From positions 1 to 10,896 of the forward strand of contig JAICHN010000140.1 of assembly GCA_025924845.1 (NCBI GenBank): DNA of 10,896 bases, given 5' to 3'. Below the pieces are notes generated by a model. The model saw only the letters and a list, made by a program, of their open reading frames with translations, was not told where the DNA came from and made no database searches. Shown here piece by piece: positions 1 through 10,896 of the stretch. Position 1 is the first letter of the stretch, and each line of letters begins with the position of its first letter. The DNA is from Chloroflexota bacterium (lineage in GTDB: Bacteria; Chloroflexota; UBA5177; JANWHV01). A program made the translations under genes and the position numbers.

Positions 1-1059
1 ACGACGACAGCGGCGGCGTTCGCGCTCAAGCGGGCCGCCGCCGAGGCCGCGTCCCTGGTGGATTTCGCCCTGTGGGGCGGCTTGGTGCCCGGCAATCTGG
101 ACGATCTAGAGCCGCTGGCGGCGTTGGGAGCGATCGGCTTCAAGGCATTCATGTCCAATAGTGGGATCGACGACTTCGCGGCGGCCGACGATTACACCCT
201 GTACGAAGGGATGCGCATCGCGGCGCGGCTGGGACGCATCGTTGCCGTGCATGCCGAGAACGACGCGATCACCGGCGGCCTGGCCCGCCGTGCCACGGCC
301 GAGGGACGCTCCGGCGCCCGCGACTATCTAGCCTCCCGTCCGGCCATTGCCGAATGGGAGGCGATTGGCCGGGCGATTGGCCTGGCCGAAGAGACCGGTT
401 GCGCGCTCCACATCGTCCATGTAAGCACCGGCCGCGGCGTAGTGTTGACGGCAGAGGCGCGTACACGCGGCGTGGATGTGAGTTGCGAGACCTGCCCCCA
501 TTACTTGGTACTCACCGAGGAGGATCTGGAGCGTCTGGGTGCCGTCGCCAAGTGCGCTCCGCCGCTTCGCCCGCGCTCTGAGGTCGAGGCGCTATGGGAG
601 CATCTTCGCGCCGGTACCTTGCCGATGGTAGCCTCGGACCATTCGCCGGCCCCTGCATCGATGAAAGAGGGAGACGATTTCTTCCGCATCTGGGGCGGGA
701 TCTCGGGTTGCCAATCCACCCTGCCGCTCTTGCTGGCCGAGGGCCACGCGGCGCGAGGCTTGCCGCTCGATGTGATCGGTCGGCGGACGGCGGGCTATCC
801 GGCGGAGCGCTTCGGCCTGGCGCCCGATCGAGGGGCACTGCGGGTAGGCGCTTACGCCGACCTGGCGCTGGTCGATTGTGCTCACGAATTCACCATCGCG
901 GCAACCGATCTCCTCTACCGCTACCGGCACGGCCCCTACCTAGGCCGTCGAGTTCGGGGACGGCCGACGCGGACGCTGGTGCGCGGGATCACGGTGCAAC
1001 GCGACGGGGTGTATCTGGACCACGCCATAGGGCGATTGGTCGAACCGATTGTGTCCTAA
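1..1059 (+). CDS. allB: Allantoinase (amidohydrolase family), 5' end missing
   Basis: Allantoinase opens the hydantoin ring of allantoin to give allantoate, a step in purine-ring nitrogen salvage; it is a cytoplasmic dinuclear metal enzyme. The frame is open from base 1, so the GTG at 58 is internal and about 100 N-terminal residues, including the HxH metal motif, lie outside the window. Counting from base 1, the sequence has DFALWGGLVPGN, which separates allantoinases from dihydroorotases. It also has GFKAF with the metal-bridging lysine at 48, VHAEND (H84), HIVHVS (H140), CPHYL, and ASDHSP (D213). The spacing of H84, H140 and D213 agrees with the known metal ligands of the E. coli enzyme. 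The C-terminal part looks complete. No other allantoin or urate gene is visible in the window, so the pathway context is unknown. A hydantoinase is the main alternative and is less likely. Confidence 0.9.
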   Translation, partial: TTTAAAFALKRAAAEAASLVDFALWGGLVPGNLDDLEPLAALGAIGFKAFMSNSGIDDFAAADDYTLYEGMRIAARLGRIVAVHAENDAITGGLARRATAEGRSGARDYLASRPAIAEWEAIGRAIGLAEETGCALHIVHVSTGRGVVLTAEARTRGVDVSCETCPHYLVLTEEDLERLGAVAKCAPPLRPRSEVEALWEHLRAGTLPMVASDHSPAPASMKEGDDFFRIWGGISGCQSTLPLLLAEGHAARGLPLDVIGRRTAGYPAERFGLAPDRGALRVGAYADLALVDCAHEFTIAATDLLYRYRHGPYLGRRVRGRPTRTLVRGITVQRDGVYLDHAIGRLVEPIVS

Positions 1060-1078
1060 CGATTGCTTAGGGTATGCT
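1049..1078 (+). promoter_or_regulatory. Weak candidate sigma-70 promoter before the J-domain gene
   Basis: TTGTGT (1049-1054) and TATGCT (1073-1078) are 18 bases apart, just upstream of the J-domain gene. The matches to consensus are only 3/6 and 4/6. The -35 element would overlap the end of the allantoinase gene. This is suggestive only. Confidence 0.2.
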
Positions 1079-1133
1079 GTGCCCTGAATGAACCCTCTGG
1101 TCGAGGCCCCCATACTGAGATCGGCACAGGTGG

Positions 1134-1949
1134 ATGGACGGCGAGATTTCAGATCCTTATGGCGTCCTTGGCCTCTCCCGAACGGCCGATGCGGACGAAC
1201 TGAAGCGGGCGTATCGGAAGCTCAGCCTGGCCTGGCATCCCGATCGCTATGCGTCGGGCACTGATGCCCAGCGGCACGAGGTCGAGCGGCGTTTCAAGCT
1301 GATCAATCAGGCATACGTGGCCATTGGCGACGTGTTGCGTACGCGAAGCGAAGCCCAGGAAGCGGCGGGGCGGATCGTCATCGAGCGGTCCGACAGCAGG
1401 GTGGAGGCCATCCGCTCCGTCGTGGCCAGCGCGGCGTTGCGGGTAGTGCCCAATCTGCCGCGCCGCACCTACATCAGCGTGGTCAGTATGGTCGAGTTCA
1501 TGCTTTTCGACACCCTGGCCGTGGGCGATCGGGCTTTCGAGTTCGGCTTCGAGGCAGCGGTTCGTGAGGCGTTGGATTTTGCCGGCCTAGCGCCGAACTC
1601 GCGGGCAGACTGCATGAAGGTACTCGATACCGCCGTGGACGACCTGACCTGGCGCGGCAAGGGCGCTGACCCCAAGACCTGGCAAACACTACTCCGTCCC
1701 CTGGAAGAGGCTATGTATCCAAATCGCCCCGCCCCTGCCGACCCACCGATGCGTTCGGTTTCCAAGCAGGAGCCGCCCCCCCTACTGCGGCGTGAGCCGC
1801 CATTTCAGGCAGCACAAGTGGCCCTGTTGGTGTTGTTCTTCATCCTGATCCTGCCCTTCTTGCCGCTGGCCGGATTGCCTCGGGTGCTCCTCCTGCTAAT
1901 CGACCTCGGTGGGCTGGGCTACCTGACGTTCGGCCCTCGTGCGGTCTAA
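1134..1949 (+). CDS. J-domain (DnaJ-like) protein with C-terminal membrane anchor
   Basis: This is a 271-residue type III J-protein. Residues 7-67 form a J-domain: DPYGVLGL opening, a basic helix II (ELKRAYRKL), the essential HPD loop at 35-37, and helix III ending in FKLINQAYVAI. HPD stimulates the ATPase of Hsp70 (DnaK). There is no Gly/Phe region and no zinc-finger CxxCxGxG repeat, so it is not DnaJ itself. Residues 85-195 form a mostly helical region I do not recognise. A Pro-rich linker (198-222) leads to two hydrophobic segments (about 226-247 and 249-268), so the J-domain is probably cytoplasmic and tethered to the membrane. The ATG at 1134 is chosen because the J-domain starts six residues later. 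Its ribosome binding site is poor: AGGTGG abuts the start codon. It probably recruits DnaK to a membrane-associated client, which is unknown. Confidence 0.85.
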   Translation: MDGEISDPYGVLGLSRTADADELKRAYRKLSLAWHPDRYASGTDAQRHEVERRFKLINQAYVAIGDVLRTRSEAQEAAGRIVIERSDSRVEAIRSVVASAALRVVPNLPRRTYISVVSMVEFMLFDTLAVGDRAFEFGFEAAVREALDFAGLAPNSRADCMKVLDTAVDDLTWRGKGADPKTWQTLLRPLEEAMYPNRPAPADPPMRSVSKQEPPPLLRREPPFQAAQVALLVLFFILILPFLPLAGLPRVLLLLIDLGGLGYLTFGPRAV

Positions 1950-1959
1950 ATCCGTGCGG

Positions 1960-1977
1960 TATTATAGTTGAGGGAGG
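1960..1977 (+). promoter_or_regulatory. AT-rich -10-like box and ribosome binding site before the Uma2 gene
   Basis: TATTAT (1960-1965, overlapping TATAGT at 1963-1968) is an A/T island in GC-rich surroundings. It lies just before a strong Shine-Dalgarno sequence, AGGGAGG (1971-1977), seven bases upstream of the ATG at 1985. No convincing -35 box is present. The Shine-Dalgarno sequence is solid; the -10 box is tentative, and it would leave a very short leader. Confidence 0.4.
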
Positions 1978-1984
1978 GTGCGCC

Positions 1985-2551
1985 ATGACCGCTGAGTTGC
2001 AGTTCGGGCCGCTCTGGACCGTCGAGCAGTATCTGGAGTTGGAGCGCGATTGCCAGGTCAGGCACGAGTATCATGACGGCTACGTCTATGCCATGGCGGG
2101 CGGCACGCAGGCCCATAGCCAGATTGCGGGAAATATCTATGCCTTACTTCGCATCGCGGTTCGAGGCGGTCCATGTCGAGCCCTCAATCCGGATATCAAA
2201 GTTCGCCAGTCGAAAGAGCACTACGTCTATCCCGATGTCGTGGTGACCTGCGATCCACGCGACCATATGCCCAGCCGTGTATGGGTGGACTACCCGATCC
2301 TGGTGGTGGAGGTGCTCTCAAAGGCCACGGAACGGCATGACCGGGGCGACAAATTCGAGGGCTATAAGCGTATCCCTACCCTTCGCGAGTATATGCTCGT
2401 GGGCTATAAGCGGCGGGGCGTGGAGGTCTGGCGCCGCACCGAGGACGATATCTGGACGGTGATCAGCTATGGCCCGGGGGCCGAAGTGACGCTGGAAAGC
2501 GTGTCCTTAACCCTTACCCTCGATCAAATCTACGAGGACAGCGGCCTCTAA
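1985..2551 (+). CDS. Uma2 family (DUF820) PD-(D/E)xK nuclease-like protein
   Basis: This 188-residue protein has the usual length and layout of the Uma2/DUF820 family, which has a restriction-endonuclease-like fold. The family is greatly expanded in Cyanobacteria and Chloroflexota and its cellular role is not settled. Visible signatures are the N-terminal TVEQYLEL and HEYHDGYVYAMAGG (E29), the H44 helix, and NPDIKV. The catalytic core follows: YPDVVV (D84), LVVEVLSKAT (E109) and DRGDKFEGY (K123, Y127). The acidic residues and the lysine expected for metal-dependent phosphodiester cleavage are therefore all present. The start is fixed by AGGGAGG seven bases upstream. The final stop (TAA, 2549-2551) overlaps the stop of the convergent S51-family gene. 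No partner gene (antitoxin, transposase) sits beside it, so it is probably a stand-alone copy. Nuclease activity is inferred from the fold. Confidence 0.88.
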   Translation: MTAELQFGPLWTVEQYLELERDCQVRHEYHDGYVYAMAGGTQAHSQIAGNIYALLRIAVRGGPCRALNPDIKVRQSKEHYVYPDVVVTCDPRDHMPSRVWVDYPILVVEVLSKATERHDRGDKFEGYKRIPTLREYMLVGYKRRGVEVWRRTEDDIWTVISYGPGAEVTLESVSLTLTLDQIYEDSGL

Positions 2552-3294
2552 GCCGAATCTCCGTCCAGGCTCACCGGTCGGCCCGCCTCGTAGACCGCCT
2601 TCTCGTCCGCGTTGTACACCCAGACCCTGCGTTGGCCCATCACCCGCCAGCCGGCGGCGTCGACACGGACCAGTGCCGTATCTTCTTCGATTCCTAGCAG
2701 TATGGCGCCGGCGGGCACATTTCGCACCAGCCGTTCCGCCGCCTCGTCACCGATGAACGAGGCGATGCGGTCGTAGTGCGGGACCACGATCAGCCGAGGA
2801 AGGACGCCCAGGGCAGGGGTCCAGGCCGGGCGCTCGTCCTCGCGCAGACCGCGAAAGCGGGAGGTTTGCCCGCAGATCGCCATGGCCCCCGCGCTGCAAC
2901 CGGCCAGGGCGGCGCCCTCGGCATGGCGGCGGGCAATGATTGCCCAGGCAGGGGTATCATGCATTGTCTCGATCAGGTGCAGCGGATTGCCGCCGGAGAA
3001 GTAGTAGAAATTTGCCGCTTCCAGGGAGGCAAGCATGCGGGGATCGTGAGCGTCTCGACGATTGAGGATAGGCACCGCCTCGGCTTTGGCGCCCAGCCGG
3101 GTGAAATGTTCCAGTCCCATGCGTGCCCAACGCGCCGGGCTTTCAGGTTCCTCCAACCCGGATGCCGTGGGGAGGACGGCCACGCGGGTCGCCGCCGCTC
3201 CGCCCAGGCAATCGCTCAGCGCCGCGTCCGTCTCATCCATTACAGGAAGGAATTCGCCCGACCCTACCAGGGCGACCGGGCCTGGAATCCGCAT
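2548..3294 (-). CDS. Peptidase S51 / cyanophycinase-like hydrolase
   Basis: This is a class I glutamine-amidotransferase-like fold of the S51 clan (PepE dipeptidase, cyanophycinase). Counting from the ATG at 3294 (248 residues), it has the N-terminal strand VALVGSGEF and FSGGNPLHL (99-107). The nucleophile elbow is GCSAGAM with Ser134, followed by VVPHYDR (His173) and GIEEDTALV (203-205 acidic). These are the elements expected of a Ser-His-acid hydrolase acting on Asp-containing peptides or cyanophycin-like substrates; the true substrate cannot be told. Cyanophycinase is usually longer. A GTG at 3312 would add six residues. I prefer the ATG because AGGTAAAG lies just upstream and the conserved fold begins four residues later. 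It starts 21 bases after the CysRS-glycosyltransferase stop on the same strand, so the two are probably cotranscribed. Confidence 0.85.
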   Translation of the reverse strand: MRIPGPVALVGSGEFLPVMDETDAALSDCLGGAAATRVAVLPTASGLEEPESPARWARMGLEHFTRLGAKAEAVPILNRRDAHDPRMLASLEAANFYYFSGGNPLHLIETMHDTPAWAIIARRHAEGAALAGCSAGAMAICGQTSRFRGLREDERPAWTPALGVLPRLIVVPHYDRIASFIGDEAAERLVRNVPAGAILLGIEEDTALVRVDAAGWRVMGQRRVWVYNADEKAVYEAGRPVSLDGDSA

Positions 3295-3315
3295 TTCTTT
3301 ACCTACCGTCACTGC

Positions 3316-3471
3316 TTATCGTTCCGATTCATGCAGGTGCGCGTGCGTGTGCGAATGATCCGGCCAGTGCCGATGCTCATGCGTGTGCGGCTCACCGGCC
3401 GGCGGAACTTCCGCCGGCTCGTGCGGTCGGACGCCTCCCACGTGGTGCGGATGCTGGTGGCCGAACCAGTG
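3316..3471 (-). other. Histidine-rich C-terminal tail of the CysRS-GT2 fusion
   Basis: Residues 748-798 of the fusion contain 15 histidines, many in alternating HxH pairs (HQHPHH, HTHEHRH, HSHTHAHLH), mixed with Pro, Glu and Asp. Such tails in other proteins (for example HypB, UreE, SlyD) bind Ni or Zn; here metal binding is inferred from composition alone. The tail is not part of either enzymatic domain and ends the protein. Confidence 0.85.
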
Positions 3472-5712
3472 CTGGGTCGGTACATAATTCGCGACCAGCA
3501 GGCTTTGCCCGTGGTGCCAGCGGCGGTAGAAAAGATCAAAGTTGCGCTTGCTTCGCACCCGACGCTCTTCTTCGGTGAGGCTGAACCATTCTCGATGAGG
3601 ATGCTTGATCAGCAGGTCATCCAGGTTGGGCACCCGGCGGACCAGATAGCCCGCCGCCTTAGAAAACAGGCTGAGATGGATGTCGGCCATGCGATAGAAG
3701 CGGAATCGTTCCTCAAAAAATCCCATTTCGGTTAAGAGCGAGCGCCGAAAGGCGATCAGATAGCCCTCGACCGCATCGGCGTCCGGCCCCGCCGTTTCCT
3801 GGAACTCCTTGAGGTCGGTGGTGGTCAGGGCATACGGCCCGACCAGGCCCGTCTTGGGGTCGGCGAGCGCGTGCGTCAGGGGAGTCCAGATATCCCCCGC
3901 CACTTCGATGGAGGTATCGAGCAGTACCACGACTTCGCCGCGCGCGGCGCGCAACCCCGCGTTCCGCCCGGCCCCAAATCCCATGTCGTGGTCCGCGAAG
4001 AAGACCTGGGTCGCGACCGGGCCGCCGTTGGCGGTGGTCACCGGCTCGCGTGCCAGGGAAAGAGCATACGCGGTCGTCGAATCGGTCGAGCCGTTGTCGA
4101 CAACCACCAGTTCGAAAGGTCCGCGCGGAGGGTGACGGAGCACGCTCTCCACGCAGCGCCGCAAGTCGTCCGCGTTGTCGTGCCCAAGGAGGTGGATCGA
4201 AAAGGCGCACGAGGCAGGCTCGGCCAGCCGGTTGGGCGTATCGGCGGAGCGGCTGATCATCTTCACATCCCGGTCGGTCTGGCCGGTTAAATATGGGCCG
4301 GATCGGGTGTCGCGGATGGCGAAACCTTCGGCCTCGACCCTGGCCCGCAGCCGATCGGCCGTCACAAAGAGGCCGCGATCACGGGCGTGGGCTCGATCGG
4401 CCGTGAGCATGTGTACCTGATCCGGCACGTCAAGCCCCGGTTCCACCATGATCTCGTCATGCCCCGTGGGCCGGGCGGCCAACCAATCGGCCAGACCGAA
4501 GCCGAGAATGCGGTCAAAATCGAGCACGAGGGCAAGGCGCCTGGCCGGAGGCATATCGTATCGGTCGCGGCGTACCAGATCCCACACCGCGGCCATGGCG
4601 CGGGGCATATGCAGATCATCTTCGATGGCGGCCGTGAAATCAGCACGGCACTGTCGTTCGCCTTCAGCGGCAGCCTGGTTCGCGGCCGACTCGGCCTCGC
4701 GCAGGGACTTCATGGCATGGCGCAAGCGATTGAGCCCGGTCTGAGCGGCACGCAGCGAAGAGAAGGTGAAATTGATCCTGCTTCGGTAGTGGACCATGCT
4801 GTAGAGGTAGCGAAGGGCGATTGGGTCGAAGCCGCGGCGGATTATATCGTCGAGGGTGTAGGCGTTTCCAGTCGACTTGGCCATTTTCAGCCCGTCGCAG
4901 AGGAGATGTTGTGTGTGGATCCAGGTGCGCGCGAAGGGCTGCCCGGTATGGGCTTCGGTCTGGGCGATCTCATCCTCATGGTGGGGGAAGATATTGTCGA
5001 CGCCGCCGGTATGGAGATCGATGGTTGGCCCCAGGTGGGCGAGTGCCATGGCGCTGCATTCGATATGCCAGCCGGGGAATCCGCGCCCCCAAGGGCTATC
5101 CCAGGCCATCTCGCGGCCCGGCTCGGCCAACTTCCAGAGCGCGAAGTCCTCGGGCCGGCGCTTGTCCGAATCCTGCTCCGTGTCGGCGGCGGGCAGTGAT
5201 CGGGCGAGCTGGTTTCCGGAAAGTGCGCCGTAGGCTGGAAATTGCGTGACATCGAAGAATACGTTGCCGTGAACTTCGTAGGCAATACCCTTGGCCACGA
5301 GGTCGCGGACGATCGCCAGCATGTGCGGCACATGGTCGGTGGCGCGCGGCGCCACGCTCGGGGGGAGAATGTTGATCGCCCGTTCGTCCTGCTGGAAGGC
5401 CGCCGTATAGAAGGCGGCGATCTGGGCGGCGGTGCGCCCCTCTTTGCGTGCCTGGGCGATAATCTTATCTTCCCCCCGGTCAAGCACTTCCTGGCGCATA
5501 TGCCCGACATCGGTGATGTTCTTGACCATGGTGACCCGGAGTCCTTGGTACTCCAGGGCCCGTCGGAGCCAATCCGCCGTCGCGAAGGCGCGCAGATTGC
5601 CGATATGGATATTGCGGTAGACCGTGGGCCCGCAGGTATACATACGGATCTCGCCTGGATAGACGGGGACGATCTCGTTCAGCGATCGGGTCAGCGTGTT
5701 GTACATCCGCAT
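3316..5712 (-). CDS. cysS: Cysteinyl-tRNA synthetase fused to a GT2 glycosyltransferase with a His-rich tail
   Basis: One uninterrupted 798-residue frame. Residues 1-480 are a full CysRS, which charges tRNA-Cys with cysteine: CGPTVY (C27), HIGN signature (36-39), WHIECS (C219), FPHHEDE (H244, E248), KMAKS (276-280), the DALR helical domain (about 355-410) and a normal C-terminal end near GFAIRDT. C27, C219, H244 and E248 match the zinc ligands of the E. coli enzyme in order and spacing. CysRS usually ends here, at about 460-490 residues. A linker of about 20 residues follows, then a GT2 GT-A domain (about 503-735): VVVDNGSTD (D539, D544), GFGAGRNAG, a VVLLDTS metal-site loop and a FYRMADIHLSL acceptor motif. 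Residues 748-798 hold 15 His. The ATG at 5712 has GGAG seven bases upstream. A kinase gene ends 92 bases upstream and the S51 gene follows 21 bases downstream. The sugar donor and acceptor are unknown. Confidence 0.92.
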   Translation of the reverse strand: MRMYNTLTRSLNEIVPVYPGEIRMYTCGPTVYRNIHIGNLRAFATADWLRRALEYQGLRVTMVKNITDVGHMRQEVLDRGEDKIIAQARKEGRTAAQIAAFYTAAFQQDERAINILPPSVAPRATDHVPHMLAIVRDLVAKGIAYEVHGNVFFDVTQFPAYGALSGNQLARSLPAADTEQDSDKRRPEDFALWKLAEPGREMAWDSPWGRGFPGWHIECSAMALAHLGPTIDLHTGGVDNIFPHHEDEIAQTEAHTGQPFARTWIHTQHLLCDGLKMAKSTGNAYTLDDIIRRGFDPIALRYLYSMVHYRSRINFTFSSLRAAQTGLNRLRHAMKSLREAESAANQAAAEGERQCRADFTAAIEDDLHMPRAMAAVWDLVRRDRYDMPPARRLALVLDFDRILGFGLADWLAARPTGHDEIMVEPGLDVPDQVHMLTADRAHARDRGLFVTADRLRARVEAEGFAIRDTRSGPYLTGQTDRDVKMISRSADTPNRLAEPASCAFSIHLLGHDNADDLRRCVESVLRHPPRGPFELVVVDNGSTDSTTAYALSLAREPVTTANGGPVATQVFFADHDMGFGAGRNAGLRAARGEVVVLLDTSIEVAGDIWTPLTHALADPKTGLVGPYALTTTDLKEFQETAGPDADAVEGYLIAFRRSLLTEMGFFEERFRFYRMADIHLSLFSKAAGYLVRRVPNLDDLLIKHPHREWFSLTEEERRVRSKRNFDLFYRRWHHGQSLLVANYVPTQHWFGHQHPHHVGGVRPHEPAEVPPAGEPHTHEHRHWPDHSHTHAHLHESER
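3489..4260 (-). other. GT2 glycosyltransferase module within the fusion, with a possible internal start
   Basis: This is the part of the fusion after the CysRS C-terminus. An in-frame ATG (codon 485, 4258-4260) sits just before the GT2 domain and has GGGA seven bases upstream, so a separate glycosyltransferase polypeptide could be made. The signal is weak. The metal-site loop reads LLDTS, where many relatives have DxD or DAD; a single Asp (599) remains. The xED-type motif reads MADIHL (D677). The domain resembles rhamnosyl/glycosyl transferases of cell-surface polysaccharide synthesis, but no signal peptide or membrane span is visible, so it should be cytoplasmic. Confidence 0.6.
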
Positions 5713-5768
5713 CGGGCCGCTCCAAAGCGTAGGGTTCTCCCCCTCAGTGTAAACGGATTATCATCTCC

Positions 5769-5800
5769 CCAGGATCTACCTGGCCGGCAGGCGAGCCGGC
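5769..5800. other. Nested inverted repeats between the kinase and CysRS-GT2 genes
   Basis: In the 92 bases between the kinase stop and the CysRS start there is CCAGG-ATCTA-CCTGG (5769-5783), CCTG-GCCGG-CAGG (5779-5791) and two GCCGGC copies (5783-5788, 5795-5800). They could form alternative small hairpins in RNA. There is no U-tract for a classical terminator and the space is too short for a T-box, so a role in attenuation or RNA stability is only a possibility. Confidence 0.3.
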
Positions 5801-5804
5801 GCCA

Positions 5805-7172
5805 TTACCGTCCCGCGTGACGCGGCAGGGCGCGCGCCAGGGTGTGCGGCGCCTGCCCCGCCCGCCAGATACTGAGTACCCAGCACAGGAATGCCCCCAT
5901 AAGCGCGCAGGACACCACGATGCCGGTGAAGGCATGGCCTCCGGCCATGGCCACGGCTACGGCGAACCAGAACGGCAGGGCGATACCCCAGCGGGCCAAC
6001 AGGAGATTGCGCGCTCGGCGTACCGCCCCGACCGTGTTCGGTCCCGGCGTGGCACGTCGGCGCTGATGCAGCCCGACGAAGGGACCGATATAGGCGGCGG
6101 TGGGTAGGTACACGGCGAGCAGCATAAGCGCGACGGCGCCGATGCCTCCCGCGGCCGACCCCAGTGAAGCCCGCGCCACGTTCAGGGCCACCAGCGAGAG
6201 CGGCACCGTTATGCCGGGAAGGATTGTGATCCAGAAGTAAAAGGGAGCCTCTACCGCCTGCAACATCTCCGTGGTGGCGGGCAGCACGCCCTGGAGCGCA
6301 GCCCGCATCTCCAGGGCGTCGGCATAGCGCTCGCGAGGGTCGAGCGCCAGCGCCCTGGCGATAACCGCCCCGGTGGAGGGTCGCAGGCCAGGGCGGAGCG
6401 CGCCTGCCGGCGGATGGCGGAAGGGCATTTCCTGGTCCGGATTATAGCCGGTGAGGAGGCGATGGAGGGTAGCACCGAGCGCATAGATATCGCTGCGCGC
6501 ATCGGCAAAGCCCTGATACTGTTCCGGCGCGGCATAGCCGGGCGTGCCGACGGCGGTGCCGGGCAAGCCGGGCGCGGCCCGACGGGCGACCCCGAAATCG
6601 ACCAGCACCAACTCCCCGGTGTCGGCCCGTTCAAGGATATTGGCAGGCTTGAGGTCGCGATAAATAATCGGCTCGGCCTGATGATGGAGAAAGTGCAGGA
6701 CCTCGCAGATCTCGACGCCCCAGCGGAGCACCTGATCCTCGGAGGGCAGCGCGTAGGCGGCCCGCATCTCCAGGCTTGGCCCGGGAACCGCCTCCATGAC
6801 CAGGTAACTGCGATCGTGCTCGGAAAAGCCCGCGTGTAAAACAGGCAGCGAACGATGACGCAGGGTGCTGAGCAGGTGAGCTTCGCGCAGGAACCACCCA
6901 AGCGCCTCTTTCCGTTCAGACGGGGCGAGGGCGCCGAAAATCAATTCCTTCAAGACCATTGCCGTCTCGCCGCGCGCCAGATCCACCACGCGGTAGACGG
7001 TGCTCATCGGCCCGCGATGGATCTGATTCAGGATACGATAACGCCCCGCCACGACACTGCCCGCCGGGCGTGCAAGCTGCATGTGACTGCTGAGCGTGAC
7101 CGCGACCGAGCAGCTCGCCGGGTCGAGATGATGCAAGCCGCAGGCCCCGCACGGGGCCGCTACTACCGACAT
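5805..7172 (-). CDS. PknB-type Ser/Thr protein kinase with C-terminal multi-span membrane domain
   Basis: The N-terminus carries a small Cys cluster (C8, C11, C21, numbered from the ATG at 7172), perhaps a reduced zinc ribbon. The kinase domain spans about 43-296: VLKE lysine (K75), helix C glutamate (E97), YRDLKPANI catalytic loop (D173, N178), DFG (D192), the YAAPEQY motif, and an arginine in DPRERYADA. Catalytic residues are intact, but the glycine loop is degenerate (IHRGPMSTVY) and HRD is YRD, as in other Chloroflexota and cyanobacterial kinases. Four hydrophobic segments follow (about 312-332, 343-365, 393-413, 414-436). The kinase faces the cytoplasm; no extracellular sensor domain is visible. 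The frame extends to 7334, but I chose the ATG at 7172 because GGAGAAGG (7180-7187) lies seven bases upstream; the ATG at 7199 with GAGAGGGA is a close alternative. Substrates are unknown. Confidence 0.88.
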   Translation of the reverse strand: MSVVAAPCGACGLHHLDPASCSVAVTLSSHMQLARPAGSVVAGRYRILNQIHRGPMSTVYRVVDLARGETAMVLKELIFGALAPSERKEALGWFLREAHLLSTLRHRSLPVLHAGFSEHDRSYLVMEAVPGPSLEMRAAYALPSEDQVLRWGVEICEVLHFLHHQAEPIIYRDLKPANILERADTGELVLVDFGVARRAAPGLPGTAVGTPGYAAPEQYQGFADARSDIYALGATLHRLLTGYNPDQEMPFRHPPAGALRPGLRPSTGAVIARALALDPRERYADALEMRAALQGVLPATTEMLQAVEAPFYFWITILPGITVPLSLVALNVARASLGSAAGGIGAVALMLLAVYLPTAAYIGPFVGLHQRRRATPGPNTVGAVRRARNLLLARWGIALPFWFAVAVAMAGGHAFTGIVVSCALMGAFLCWVLSIWRAGQAPHTLARALPRHAGR

Positions 7173-7292
7173 ACCGCCGCCTTCTCCGACAACCCTCATC
7201 TGTTTCCCTCTCATGGTACCGTACGGAAGGCCGTGTGGGACGATAGTTATGGTCGCGATCGTCTCCATGTGCGCGAGTTTCTTACTCCGGAC

Positions 7293-7319
7293 AGCGTAAT
7301 CGGCCCGCCTGGCGGTCAA
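7293..7319 (-). promoter_or_regulatory. Weak candidate promoter for the kinase gene
   Basis: On the minus strand, TTGACC (7314-7319) and TACGCT (7293-7298) are separated by 15 bases, shorter than the usual 16-18. If real, transcription would begin near 7286, which excludes the most upstream in-frame start (7334) and supports a start at 7199 or 7172. Confidence 0.22.
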
Positions 7320-7331
7320 TCGTTCCGCTGA

Positions 7332-7343
7332 CACGCCGGCGTG
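7332..7343. promoter_or_regulatory. Perfect 12-base palindrome, operator-like
   Basis: CACGCCGGCGTG reads the same on both strands and lies between the divergent kinase and methyltransferase starts. Its size fits a dimeric regulator's site. No cognate regulator is known, and short GC palindromes arise by chance in DNA of this composition. Confidence 0.3.
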
Positions 7344-7435
7344 GTGTACCCTTGGAGCGTTGGTGACCGACCCGCTAGCCGCACCCTGTCATGATCGTTC
7401 GGGGTCGCACATAGGCGGCGCCCAGCGGCCCAGAT

Positions 7436-7449
7436 CCGGCCGCGGCCGG
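7436..7449. promoter_or_regulatory. Perfect 14-base GC palindrome with flanking inverted arms
   Basis: CCGGCCGCGGCCGG is a perfect palindrome 56 bases before the methyltransferase start. It is flanked by GGCCC (7427-7431) and GGGCC (7456-7460), giving a larger interrupted inverted repeat. It could be an operator or a leader hairpin. Chance is a real alternative at this GC content. Confidence 0.3.
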
Positions 7450-7505
7450 CAGGTCCGGGCCGAACACGGCGGCAAGCGACGGTTGCATTTCTGGGGGAAA
7501 GCAGC

Positions 7506-8285
7506 ATGTCCAGATCGAGCGAGCACAACGAAACCGTACGCCGCGAATTCACCAGCCAGGCGACGGCATACGCGAGCAATCCGGTCATCTCCGATCGCGA
7601 GCGCATCGACCGATTCTTTCAAGCGGTGCATCCGCCCGGCACGGCATGCGTACTGGATGTAGCTACGGGTCCGGGATACCTCGCCATGTATTTCGCCGAG
7701 CGATGCCGCGAGGTTACGGGGATCGATCTGACCGCCGCGCCGCTTGAGTTGGCGAACCGCATGCGCGATCAGCGCGGCCAGGCAAACCTACGGTTTGAGC
7801 AAGGGGATGTCGCGCATCTCCCCTTTTCCGAGGGCACATTTGATGTCGTGATCTGCCGCTTTGCCCTGCACCACATGTTGGAGCCGCGCGTCGCGCCGGC
7901 TGAGATGGCGCGGGTATGTCGCACGGGCGGCGTGGTGGCGGTCGAGGATCTGGTGGTGAGTGAGCATACGGCGCGTGGGGCGTATCAGAACAGGATAGAG
8001 ACGCTCCGTGATTCGTCTCACGTTCGAGCGCTTCCCTTGAGTGAGCTGCTGATCCTGTTCGCCCGAGAAGGGCTGGAGGTCGAAACGGTCTATACGAGTC
8101 AATTAACTCCAGTCGTGGAACAATGGCTAGCGAATGCGCACACCCCTGCCGAGCGGGCCAATGAGGTGCGTGAACTGGTGGAGGACGACGAGAAAAGTGA
8201 CCTCAGCGGGATGCGCCCCTTCCGCCAGGGGGACCAACTTGCCTTCATCCAGCGTACGGGGGCGGTAATCGGCCGCAAGCTTTGA
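7506..8285 (+). CDS. Class I SAM-dependent methyltransferase (UbiE/MenG-like)
   Basis: This 259-residue cytoplasmic methyltransferase has the Rossmann-like class I fold. Motif I is VLDVATGPGYLA (49-60), the acidic loop is GIDLT (72-76), the motif II region is FEQGDVAHLPF (97-107), and motif IV is FDVVICRFALHHM (112-124). The FALHHM and LPF wording is typical of methyltransferase domain 11 proteins related to UbiE and YcgJ. The C-terminal third (about 160-259) is less conserved and should determine the acceptor, which cannot be read from sequence. The ATG start is supported by GGGGGAAA upstream. The gene is divergent from the kinase and convergent with csaA. Directly after its stop is a strong Shine-Dalgarno sequence leading into only eight codons, which suggests a lost partner gene downstream. 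Confidence 0.88.
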   Translation: MSRSSEHNETVRREFTSQATAYASNPVISDRERIDRFFQAVHPPGTACVLDVATGPGYLAMYFAERCREVTGIDLTAAPLELANRMRDQRGQANLRFEQGDVAHLPFSEGTFDVVICRFALHHMLEPRVAPAEMARVCRTGGVVAVEDLVVSEHTARGAYQNRIETLRDSSHVRALPLSELLILFAREGLEVETVYTSQLTPVVEQWLANAHTPAERANEVRELVEDDEKSDLSGMRPFRQGDQLAFIQRTGAVIGRKL

Positions 8286-8320
8286 AGGAGAACATGCGCA
8301 TTGTAGTTGGCGGTGTGTAG
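8285..8320 (+). pseudogene. Orphan Shine-Dalgarno and start followed by eight codons (probable gene remnant)
   Basis: AAGGAG (8285-8290) begins at the last base of the methyltransferase stop. It is followed three bases later by ATG (8294) and the peptide MRIVVGGV, then TAG (8318-8320). The ribosome binding site is as good as any in the window. The peptide looks like the first beta strand of a nucleotide- or flavin-binding protein, but it stops at the expected glycine-rich loop. It may be the stub of a deleted or interrupted gene, or a very short leader peptide. No continuation is recognisable in the 33 bases before the convergent csaA. Confidence 0.4.
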
Positions 8321-8353
8321 GGTAAACGGTTCGGCGCCGCATCCTGTCGGAGG

Positions 8354-8716
8354 TCAGAATACTCGTCCCCCCAGAGGTATGGCGCGCTCCGGTTCCAGGA
8401 GTACTACATTGCCCTCGGCATCGGGAACGCCGAGCACCAGTACTTCAGAACTGAAATCGGCAATGCGGCGCGGCGGGAAGTTCAGCACGGCAAGCACCAG
8501 GCGGCCGGGCAGATCCTCCAGGCAATACAACTGGGTAAGTTGCGCGCTCGATTGGCGTAGTCCCAGTGGCCCGAAGTCGATCGTGAGTTGGTACGCGGGC
8601 TTGCGCGCGGCGGTGAAGGACTGAGCGGCAGTGATCCGGCCCACTCGTATATCGATCCGCTCGAAGTCGTCGAGCGTCACCTGCTCCCTGAGTTCGGGTA
8701 TGTTGTCTTGCTCCAC
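8354..8716 (-). CDS. csaA: CsaA, tRNA-binding-domain (OB-fold) chaperone
   Basis: CsaA is a small cytoplasmic homodimeric OB-fold protein related to the C-terminal tRNA-binding domain of MetRS. In Bacillus it has been described as a secretion-related chaperone, and it binds tRNA. Counting from the GTG at 8716 (120 residues), it has TLDDFERIDIRVG (14-26), ARKPAYQLTIDFG (37-49), SSAQLT (56-61), the LAVLNFPPR region and the SEVLVLGVPD region. Together these match the family almost end to end. The frame stays open to an ATG at 8794, but the extra 26 residues are unlike the family. The GTG has AAGGAG (8728-8733) eleven bases upstream. A shorter GTG start at 8680 is also possible. It converges with the methyltransferase gene. 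No Sec component is adjacent. Confidence 0.9.
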   Translation of the reverse strand: MEQDNIPELREQVTLDDFERIDIRVGRITAAQSFTAARKPAYQLTIDFGPLGLRQSSAQLTQLYCLEDLPGRLVLAVLNFPPRRIADFSSEVLVLGVPDAEGNVVLLEPERAIPLGGRVF

Positions 8717-8829
8717 GGCGGCTCTGTCTCCTTTCCGGCTGGACGTACAGCGCGTTTCGGTCGCCAATCGGGTTATCCAGGGCGTTGCCTTCATGGTACC
8801 GAGTACGTGCTATGGCCAATACCGGCGGC

Positions 8830-9006
8830 TCAGAAGCAATGAGCGATTTCGAGCGGTGTTGCGACCTTGACCAGCCCGAGGCTTCGCAACAGTTGGAGAT
8901 TGTCTTGCACAGTACGTCTCGGCACCGTGGCCACCAGATTCTCTCGCAATACTACTGCCGATTCCTTTTGGTATGCGGTGACAGGCAGAGACTCTGGTTG
9001 CCGCGT
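8830..9006 (-). pseudogene. Possible winged-helix DNA-binding domain fragment
   Basis: There are 58 sense codons between TAA (9007-9009) and TGA (8830-8832). The translation contains RENLVATVPRRTVQDNL followed directly by QLLRSLGLVKV. The pattern of helix, short turn, then R-T-V-x-x-x-L-x-L-L-x-x-L-G-L-V is the recognition helix and lead-in of many winged helix-turn-helix regulators. There is no ATG; the only plausible starts are a TTG at 8949 or GTG codons further in, none with a clear Shine-Dalgarno sequence. It looks like the C-terminal remnant of a regulator gene or a chance frame. Codon third-position GC is modest compared with the neighbours. Confidence 0.3.
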
Positions 9007-9026
9007 TTACATATTGATGCGCGCCC

Positions 9027-9046
9027 CGGGCCCTCCGTGCGGCCCG
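9027..9046 (-). terminator. GC hairpin directly after plsX
   Basis: The arms CGGGCC (9027-9032) and GGCCCG (9041-9046) pair perfectly around an eight-base loop. They begin one base after the plsX stop codon on the minus strand. No U-tract follows, only an AT-richer stretch near 9005-9018, so it may be a weak or factor-aided terminator or an RNA-stabilising hairpin. Confidence 0.35.
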
Positions 9047-9047
9047 A

Positions 9048-10070
9048 TCACTCTGCCGACCCCCGCGCCTCCGCCAACGACCGCCCGATCGCTCCCACCA
9101 CGTCGGCGCGGGCCAGCCGATCGGCCAGACGCAGGGCCTGCGTGATGGCGCGTGCTTTGGACCGCCCGTGGCAATTGACCAGCACTCCTTGGACGCCCAG
9201 CACTGGTACGCCGCCGTATTCGGCATAGTCAAGTCGACGACCGAGGGCACGGAGCGCGGGCAGGGCCAGCGCCGCGCCAAGTTTGGCGCGCAGGCTGCTC
9301 TGCAGTTGACTGCGCAGCAGGCCGACGATCGTGCTCGCCGTACCCTCCATGGTCTTCAGAATGACGTTCCCCGTAAAGCCGTCGCAGACCACCACGTCCG
9401 CCTTCCCGGCCGTCACGTCGTTGCCCTCGATGTTGCCGATAAAGTTAAGGTCGCTCGCCTTGAGCAATTCGAAGGCAGCCAGGGTAAGTGGGGTGCCTTT
9501 TCCCTCTTCCTCGCCATTGCTCATCAGGCCCACGCGGGGCCGAGCCAGTCCGCGCTCTACCTGCATATACACGGCGCCCATGCGGGCGAACTGCAAGAGC
9601 CACGCCGGCTTGCATTCGGCGTTGGCCCCCATATCAAGCAGGAATGCCTGGCCATCGCGCGTCGGCACCAGTCCACCGAAGGCCGGTCTGTCGATACCTT
9701 CCTGCCGTTTGAGAAAAAAAATGCCTGCCGCCATGATCGCCCCGCTGTTGCCGGCCGACACCGCTGCCGCGGCCTGCCCATCATGGACCATGCGCACGCA
9801 GGCCGGCAACGATGCGTTGGGTTTGGCACGCAAGGCGCGGGCAGGGTGCTCGTGCATGGCAATAATGTCCGGGGCGTGATGGATGGTAATGCCGGCCGGT
9901 ATCGTACCCAGCTCGGACATGACGGCACGGATACGCGGCTCGTCGCCGACCAGGCAAATAGCCGGCCCATGGTCGCGGACGCCCGCTACGGCGCCCTTCA
10001 CGATCTCGTCCGGCGCATGGTCGCCTCCCATGGCATCGAGGGCGATAGGGAGCCGGGCAGGTGCGCTCAC
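9048..10070 (-). CDS. plsX: Phosphate acyltransferase PlsX
   Basis: PlsX converts acyl-ACP plus phosphate to acyl-phosphate, the donor used by PlsY in the first acylation of glycerol-3-phosphate for phospholipid synthesis; it is a peripheral membrane enzyme. The 340 residues match the family over the full length: IALDAMGGDHAP (9-20), SAGNSGA (105-111), LLDMGANAECKP (144-155), GLMSNGEEEGKG (181-192), GNIEGNDV (212-219), VCDGFTGNVILK (228-239), YGGVPVLGVQGV (285-296) and HGRS (301-304). The start is a GTG (10068-10070) that overlaps the pepF stop in the sequence GTGA, so translation is probably coupled to pepF. The usual companions rpmF, fabH and fabD are not next to it. A GC hairpin follows the stop. 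Confidence 0.95.
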   Translation of the reverse strand: MSAPARLPIALDAMGGDHAPDEIVKGAVAGVRDHGPAICLVGDEPRIRAVMSELGTIPAGITIHHAPDIIAMHEHPARALRAKPNASLPACVRMVHDGQAAAAVSAGNSGAIMAAGIFFLKRQEGIDRPAFGGLVPTRDGQAFLLDMGANAECKPAWLLQFARMGAVYMQVERGLARPRVGLMSNGEEEGKGTPLTLAAFELLKASDLNFIGNIEGNDVTAGKADVVVCDGFTGNVILKTMEGTASTIVGLLRSQLQSSLRAKLGAALALPALRALGRRLDYAEYGGVPVLGVQGVLVNCHGRSKARAITQALRLADRLARADVVGAIGRSLAEARGSAE

Positions 10071-10896
10071 AGCGCTTCCAGTTCGTCTACCAAACTTGCA
10101 AAGACGGCTACGGCCCGCTCAAGCGGGTCGGGAATGGTCATGTCGAGGCCGGCGGCCGCCAAGATGTCAATGGAGTGCGCCGACGACCCGGTGCGGAGGA
10201 AGGTGAGGTACCGTGCAATGGCGAGGGCGCCATCGCTCCGGATAGCAGCACTGAAGGCAGCAGCGGCGGCGATACCAGTCGCATACTGGTAAGAGTAGAA
10301 GTTGCGGTAGTGATGAAGAGGACGCATCCAGTTGCCGCCCATCGTGTCAGTGCTGATCTCCACCGTGTCACCGTACATCCGGCGCAGATTTGCCATGGCC
10401 GCTTCCGTGACGCTTTCGTACGTCAACGGCTGCCCTTGCTCGACCATGGTGTGGACATCGAGCTGCAGAGCCGCCATCTGGGCGCCGCCGAAGAAGTTGC
10501 TGGTGAAGGCGCCGAGCACCCTGGCCAGTACGGCACGGCGCAGGGCACGTTCGTTCGTGGTGTCCAGCAGAAAGCGCGCCAACAGCAATTCGTTTGTGGT
10601 AGAGGCAATCTCGGCCAGGAAACTGGTGTAATGCGCGTAGATAAAGGGTTGCGCGGCACTGCTGAATGTGGAGTGGACGGCGTGGCCCAACTCATGGGCG
10701 AGGGTAAAGGTATCACTCAGCTTTCCCTGCCAATTAAGTAAGATCACAGGATGGTAGCCGTAGCAGCCGTACGAGTAAGCGCCATGTCGCTTCCCCGCGT
10801 TGTCCGCCCAGTCGATCCAGCGTTCACGCCGTGCCTGGGCAAGTACCTCGGCGTATTCAGCACCAAGGGGAGCTACCGCCTGGATCACCTGATCGA
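10067..10896 (-). CDS. pepF: Oligoendopeptidase F (M3 family), C-terminal part
   Basis: This is a zinc metallopeptidase that cuts oligopeptides in the cytoplasm. The frame is open to the window edge, so the GTG at 10886-10888 is internal; roughly half of the usual 600-residue protein, the N-terminal half, is missing. Counting from that GTG, AYSYGCYGYHPVILLNW (37-53) precedes the HExxH zinc site FTLAHELGHAVHS (H65, E66, H69). The third ligand glutamate is E93 in SFLAEIASTTNE. The substrate-contacting HYRNFYSYQYATG segment lies further down. All are standard for PepF and separate it from other M3 peptidases such as thimet oligopeptidase. The stop TGA (10067-10069) overlaps the plsX GTG start. 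The catalytic half is intact. Confidence 0.93.
   Translation of the reverse strand, partial: DQVIQAVAPLGAEYAEVLAQARRERWIDWADNAGKRHGAYSYGCYGYHPVILLNWQGKLSDTFTLAHELGHAVHSTFSSAAQPFIYAHYTSFLAEIASTTNELLLARFLLDTTNERALRRAVLARVLGAFTSNFFGGAQMAALQLDVHTMVEQGQPLTYESVTEAAMANLRRMYGDTVEISTDTMGGNWMRPLHHYRNFYSYQYATGIAAAAAFSAAIRSDGALAIARYLTFLRTGSSAHSIDILAAAGLDMTIPDPLERAVAVFASLVDELEAL

Follow-up and report, generated by a model that had tools for sequence, protein, structure and literature searches.

The stretch of Chloroflexota DNA analysed here (contig JAICHN010000140.1, positions 1 to 10,896; hereafter the window, 10,896 nucleotides long) encodes on its minus strand a protein in which a cysteinyl-tRNA synthetase (CysRS) is followed in frame by a family-2 glycosyltransferase (GT2) domain. 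We confirm that this CysRS-GT2 fusion is real. In the phylogeny of the synthetase part the fused CysRS form one group, and we read them as a second, lineage-wide Chloroflexota CysRS that carries a GT2 domain on its anticodon-binding tail (CysS_C-like). This tail and the GT2 domain are shown, at the level of sequence, to be a conserved physical unit that occurs with or without a full CysRS ahead of it, and the anticodon-reading residues retained at the joint suggest an undescribed enzyme that would put sugar on tRNA.

A synthetase and a glycosyltransferase in one frame

Open reading frame (ORF) analysis of the window places the gene in a single stop-free frame of 798 codons that begins with ATG and encodes 798 residues (Table 1); the plus strand across the same interval contains internal stops. 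The in-frame joining of CysRS and GT2 that was the core of the original prediction is thus borne out by an uninterrupted frame as well as by matches to TIGR00435 and PF00535 above their cut-offs. TIGR00435 matches residues 1-473 (model positions 1-461 of 466) and passes its equivalog cut-off with 415.2 against 340 bits, PF01406 scores 323.7 bits, and the best NCBIfam match by bits, PRK14536, reaches 434.7, under that model's cut-off of 780. The cut-off of the MshC model TIGR03447 is not reached (214.1 against 485.1 bits). C27, HIGN (36-39), C219, H244/H245, E248 and KMAKS (276-280) are all present, with H244 or H245 as the zinc-ligand histidine, and the CysRS motif residues are invariant in 121 aligned fused proteins except for I37 (117) and S280 (120). 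Of the motifs named originally, HIGN, KMAKS and the zinc-ligand residues stand; the DALR domain is not borne out by Pfam, whose DALR_2 misses an E-value of 0.01 in the window protein (it reaches this value in 11 of 41 fused proteins scanned). Solved CysRS structures can be aligned with the window protein through residue 473, the tail of E. coli CysRS aligns with its tail, and 31 of the 41 fused proteins match PF23493 (CysS_C) at E<=0.01.

The junction, originally placed at 4200-4280, agrees with the linker found here. Beyond it, PF00535 matches residues 513-630 with 58.9 bits and passes its cut-off of 23.3; on a structure model the GT2 part is of the GT-A fold and a predicted glycosyltransferase, and the closest structural matches of this model are polypeptide and polysaccharide transferases. 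None of D544, D599, E603 and D677 varies among the 121 aligned fused proteins, and D539 is present in 117 of them. The usual DxD is replaced by D-T-S, with D599 in 121, S601 in 119 and E603 again in 121 of the 121 proteins, and the latter half of the domain has conserved Arg, His and Asn residues. The original account of the domains, correct about CysRS and GT2, had overlooked the CysS_C stretch at the junction and a conserved histidine-rich tail at the C-terminus (residues 746-798), in which 11 His, W783 and D785 are invariant in the same 121 rows. This tail probably binds metal.

The fusion recurs across Chloroflexota

In a search with the whole protein all of the best 120 of 6811 matches carry both PF01406 and PF00535 and are 790-837 residues long, so that the fusion is not due to chance; sources that name the fused proteins among these 120 mostly call them cysteine--tRNA ligase or cysteinyl-tRNA synthetase. 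At 19 loci in named genomes, ten whole genes and L008, which ends at the contig end, are fused, the contigs of L011 and L013 end before the GT2 part would start, and L014-L019 are unfused CysRS from other phyla. The fused loci include Dictyobacter, Ktedonobacteraceae, Herpetosiphonaceae and Candidatus Chloroheliaceae. How many genomes carry the architecture, a question raised with the original prediction, can be stated for 201 Chloroflexota genomes, among them the centre genome G005, already known to be fused: a GT2 match at E<=1e-17 is found in 48, standing in frame right after the CysRS match in 28 and not so in 20, one of which (G164) lies at a contig end.

A stop, a frameshift or split genes in close relatives had been named as results that would speak for an assembly error, and none was found among the fused relatives read; in more distant Chloroflexota the GT2 part is a separate gene. 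In seven pairs of related fused genes, in some of which the synonymous divergence (dS) is large, the ratio of nonsynonymous to synonymous substitution rates (dN/dS) is 0.04-0.16 for CysRS, 0.04-0.19 for GT2 and 0.00-0.23 for the linker of 31-32 codons; for the histidine-rich tail, four pairs allowed its calculation and gave 0.04-0.14. An assembly or annotation artefact that merged two genes, to which we attach practically no probability, is ruled out by the recurrence of the fusion across many independent contigs and genomes together with the constraint on the linker in all seven pairs.

A second CysRS beside the ordinary one

A first check of eight fusion genomes found three CysRS-like genes in every one: the fusion, a short gene, and a full-length or nearly full-length one, whose match starts at model position 21 in G003. 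A separate full-length cysS is present in 25 of the 28 genomes with the in-frame fusion; the remaining three are G033, with a fragment of the gene where a contig ends, and G022 and G145, in which no copy was found. Combined, 32 of 35 fusion genomes, all of them genomes of relatives and not the window's own, hold a separate full-length or nearly full-length cysS, which settles for the relatives the earlier question of a second cysS and makes the fusion a second CysRS. That the fused copy might serve as the only CysRS was considered and rejected: G145 looks incomplete, as it also lacks ileS (present in four of four comparators), and G022 has just 1.1 Mb, so that no good case is left.

In a FastTree phylogeny of 111 CysRS, with 21 of 131 stretches left out (19 second copies of the same gene and two cut-off pieces), the 38 fused rows, which include one identical pair (L005 and L043), form one side of a branch with local support of 98, and all 16 short rows form one side of another with support of 99. 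The fused CysRS belong to a wider branch of 57 rows (support 99), whose internal order is unresolved and which also includes the CysRS of several genomes in which the GT2 part follows a CysS_C tail in a separate protein.

A third, short CysRS-like protein of about 394-425 residues, which has no anticodon tail, recurs in Chloroflexota. The four of these paralogues that were scanned lack the tail, score above the CysRS cut-off, and reach 332-364 bits on the MshC model (cut-off 485) as against 214 for the fusion.

The anticodon-binding tail accompanies GT2 without a synthetase core

A large family of proteins of about 300-335 residues, typically about 310, consists of a CysS_C tail followed by the same GT2 domain and has no synthetase core. 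It was found by a search with residues 499-798 (best 120 of 338 matches listed, including many truncated pieces of fusions) and then by one with an alignment of more distant matches (best 120 of 4480 listed); source names, where given, are Limnocylindria, Limnocylindrales, Chloroflexota and Actinomycetota. An alignment of these CysS_C-GT2 proteins (A2) comprises 24 of 34 candidates and leaves out four cut-off or odd pieces (P0216, P0217, P0219, P0221) and the near relatives P0224, P0226, P0227, P0230, L068 and L074; the anticodon motif is seen in all ten omitted proteins but P0217, P0219 and P0221. PF23493 is matched at E<=0.01 in 20 of the 24 aligned proteins and GT2 in all of them. In a GT2 tree with supports from the Shimodaira-Hasegawa-like approximate likelihood ratio test (SH-aLRT, no bootstrap), separate and fused forms do not fall into two clean groups: the separate forms of G030, G116 and G124 stand among the fused ones with supports of 81-93. 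In G123 and G203 the CysS_C-GT2 gene and a CysRS gene that groups with the fused branch are convergent and no more than about 1 kb apart.

In three loci (L074, L076 and L078) the gene after the separate CysS_C-GT2 gene falls in one cluster with the oligoendopeptidase F-like gene of the window, and the D-x-S position reads D-x-N or E-x-N.

In E. coli CysRS, R427 and D436 hydrogen-bond G34, W432 stacks on G34 and R423 takes part in a water network, as described in the accessible part of PMC12684709. R440, R444, F449 and D453 of the window protein occupy the positions of E. coli R423, R427, W432 and D436. In A2, aligned with MAFFT, the R427, D436, R423 and D451 positions are kept in 24 of 24 proteins each and the W432 position is aromatic in 24 of 24 (W/F/Y 12/8/4), and in a MAFFT alignment of 41 fused proteins (A3) the window's R444, D453, R456 and D468 are invariant and R440 nearly so. 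In larger sets placed by motif, R427 and D436 are kept in 120 of 120 fused proteins each, and in 130 and 131, respectively, of 131 separate proteins; the latter are 131 of the 136 proteins P0215-P0350, filtered by length or first letter, and mostly close Limnocylindria-like relatives. Four columns drawn at random were equally conserved in 99 (A2), 17 (fused), 79 (larger separate set) and 25 (ordinary CysRS) of 20000 draws, a comparison that ignores relatedness. Since the contact positions are conserved in ordinary CysRS too, the telling point is their retention where no synthetase core remains. The functional unit, to judge from these alignments, looks like an anticodon reader plus a glycosyltransferase.

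What the GT2 domain may act on

Our tentative proposal, to which we give somewhat less than an even chance, is that the GT2 domain glycosylates tRNA-Cys near the anticodon arm. The CysRS part would still activate cysteine and bind tRNA-Cys, the CysS_C tail would grip the anticodon with its G34 and keep the neighbouring GT2 domain close to the anticodon arm, and that domain would move a sugar from a nucleotide-sugar onto a tRNA-Cys nucleoside. The original suggestion of a cysteinylated or tRNA-linked sugar product may hold in one of these forms; we lean towards sugar being put onto tRNA rather than cysteine onto sugar because the fused CysRS keeps its anticodon-binding tail and falls far below the MshC cut-off, and because the CysS_C tail accompanies GT2 even without a synthetase core. 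Several points weigh against tRNA glycosylation. The structural search puts peptide and polysaccharide transferases first, the domain has D-x-S instead of the usual DxD, and the nucleotide-binding aspartate of the first strand (D539 in the window protein) is replaced in 17 of the 24 proteins of A2, some of which may thus not be active transferases. The window's CysS_C match lies below its cut-off and has F in place of W432, and the contact positions, which are equally conserved in ordinary CysRS, may be retained in part for structural reasons. Gene neighbours vary from locus to locus and lend no support, and to our knowledge, which is not that of an exhaustive search, no bacterial GT2 glycosylates tRNA.

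But could the fusion simply tether a GT2 domain whose acceptor is an ordinary glycan, lipid or protein? The best structural matches and the varying gene neighbours would suit such co-expression or co-localisation, in which the CysS_C tail of the separate proteins would be a fossil of an older fusion. A fossil tail, however, would hardly conserve the positions of R423, R427, D436 and D451 in every one of the 24 rows, and the fusion persists as one CysRS branch across several Chloroflexota lineages; we therefore consider mere tethering doubtful. It is unlikely, in our view, that the GT2 domain is a pseudoenzyme which senses a nucleotide-sugar or adds a tRNA-binding surface and so regulates charging by the second CysRS. 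D-x-S in place of DxD, the replaced first-strand aspartate of the separate forms and the conserved Arg, His and Asn in the domain's latter half are what one would expect of it, yet the invariant D544, D599, E603 and D677 of the fused proteins, with D539 in 117 of 121, resemble an active site.

The CysRS part might instead make cysteinyl-AMP and hand cysteine to an amino sugar built by GT2, giving a cysteine-sugar, for example a protective thiol. This chemistry is known from MshC, a paralogue of CysRS, according to the accessible parts of PMC9437257 and PMC2922099, and Chloroflexota do have short, tail-less CysRS, the four scanned lying nearer to MshC. The fused CysRS, however, scores 214 against a cut-off of 485 on MshC but 415 against 340 on CysRS, and, unlike the short paralogues, it still has the anticodon tail. 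MshC-like chemistry thus fits worse than tRNA glycosylation, and we regard it as improbable. Very improbable is a coupling of charging and glycosylation, in which the fusion would put sugar on its own Cys-tRNA-Cys, on either the tRNA or the cysteine thiol, and the product would enter translation or a tRNA-dependent pathway.

Gene neighbours and tRNA genes

The gene directly downstream of the fusion in the window encodes an S51-family peptidase, cyanophycinase/peptidase E-like and under both NCBIfam cut-offs, which is probably co-transcribed with it. Such a gene is found at this place in 8 of 30 fused loci, the window included. Every other neighbour family is confined to at most 5 of the 30; the neighbours were not systematically annotated, and genes of tRNA modification or thiol pathways could be nearby. 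A conserved operon was rejected on these counts. In the window, 2.6 kb from the fusion gene, positions 8354-8794 encode a CsaA-like protein that has a tRNA-binding domain and an N-terminal extension (TIGR02222, 145.7 bits, cut-off 119.65).

tRNA genes are present at 2 of 34 loci (Lys and Glu). A dedicated extra tRNA-Cys was considered and rejected. A strict DNA pattern gave no match in eight genomes. With a looser pattern, which can miss others, ordinary tRNA-Cys(GCA) was found in 11 of 11 genomes (nine with the fusion, two with the separate form), one in each except for two in G002. The second tRNA-Cys of G002 is part of an array in which 25 tRNA genes lie within 2.5 kb (L158, 59-2517).

Table 1. 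Features of the fusion gene, the adjoining gene and the short CysRS-like proteins
Feature	Position in window	Strand	Basis
CysRS-GT2 fusion gene, 798 residues	3316..5712 (stop codon 3316-3318)	-	ORF, family matches, fused relatives
Class I CysRS catalytic domain, residues 15-324	4741..5670	-	PF01406 match
HIGH-type motif HIGN, residues 36-39	5596..5607	-	sequence and alignment
KMSKS-type motif KMAKS, residues 276-280	4873..4887	-	sequence and alignment
CysS_C-like anticodon-binding tail, residues 431-472	4297..4422	-	PF23493 17.7 bits (cut-off 23), alignments
Linker between CysRS and GT2, residues 473-503	4204..4296	-	alignment, dN/dS
GT2 domain, predicted GT-A fold, residues 501-745 (PF00535 part 513-630)	3478..4212	-	Pfam, model, structural matches
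D-T-S-I-E at the usual DxD place, residues 599-603	3904..3918	-	alignment of 121 fused proteins
His-rich tail, residues 746-798, 15 His	3319..3477	-	alignment of 121 fused proteins
S51-family peptidase gene, begins 3 nucleotides past the fusion stop	2548..3312	-	ORF and family match
Short CysRS-like rows (L028-L035, L068, L069, L071, L075, L077, L079, L095, L101)			CysRS tree

Comparison with known systems

The fusion had been called unusual, and none of the open-access papers among the capped search results describes it. In the accessible main text of a study on peptide synthesis by class I aminoacyl-tRNA synthetase (aaRS)-like enzymes the word glycosyltransferase is absent (PMC2922099), and the accessible part of PMC11238990 makes no mention of tRNA. 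New here is the CysS_C-GT2 family without a synthetase core; the fusion itself is of a known kind, an aaRS paralogue to which a further enzyme domain has been added. With ordinary CysRS (TIGR00435; E. coli CysRS, PDB 1li5/1u0b) the fusion shares the catalytic motifs, the zinc-ligand residues and what is probably the anticodon-binding tail; it differs in being joined to GT2 and a histidine-rich tail, and in that its relatives hold another full-length CysRS.

LysX, which coexists with a housekeeping LysRS, is likewise a synthetase joined to another enzyme. Its partner MprF, however, transfers lysine to membrane lipid, whereas the partner in the fusion has a GT2 fold, with no cysteine transfer shown, and none of the six Pfam families that the window protein matches at E<=0.01 is an MprF transferase domain. 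MshC (cysteine:GlcN-Ins ligase), which is not known to have an anticodon tail, resembles the fusion as a CysRS paralogue involved in sugar chemistry, but it has no GT2 domain, and the fusion stays below the MshC model cut-off and has a tail that aligns with that of E. coli CysRS. In its accessible part, a review of aaRS duplications describes LysX as a LysRS-MprF fusion and gives, in its table, CysRS* and MshC for CysRS; CysRS* of Desulfobacterales is described there as a noncanonical second CysRS without an anticodon-binding domain that charges SelC* (PMC9437257). The fusion is a noncanonical second CysRS as well, but the missing anticodon domain of CysRS* resembles the short Chloroflexota paralogue and not the fusion.

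The queuosine-tRNA glycosyltransferases QTGAL and QTMAN, and the nucleoside glucosyltransferase AvpGT, are likened to the fusion by description only, in that they put sugar onto a tRNA nucleoside or a free nucleoside; we know of none of the three joined to a synthetase or provided with a CysS_C tail. Sugar modification of the tRNA nucleoside queuosine is described in the accessible part of PMC12518689, and AvpGT is a GT2 nucleoside 3'-O-glucosyltransferase that acts on the free nucleoside (PMC11959488). Even if its GT2 domain does not act on tRNA, the fusion is a synthetase paralogue kept beside ordinary CysRS across Chloroflexota. If it does, it would be a bacterial tRNA glycosyltransferase that reads the anticodon through a borrowed synthetase tail, an idea that can be put to a direct test with the small CysS_C-GT2 proteins of about 310 residues and a single tRNA, and it would differ from the queuosine enzymes in its target, as queuosine belongs to GUN anticodons whereas that of tRNA-Cys is GCA.
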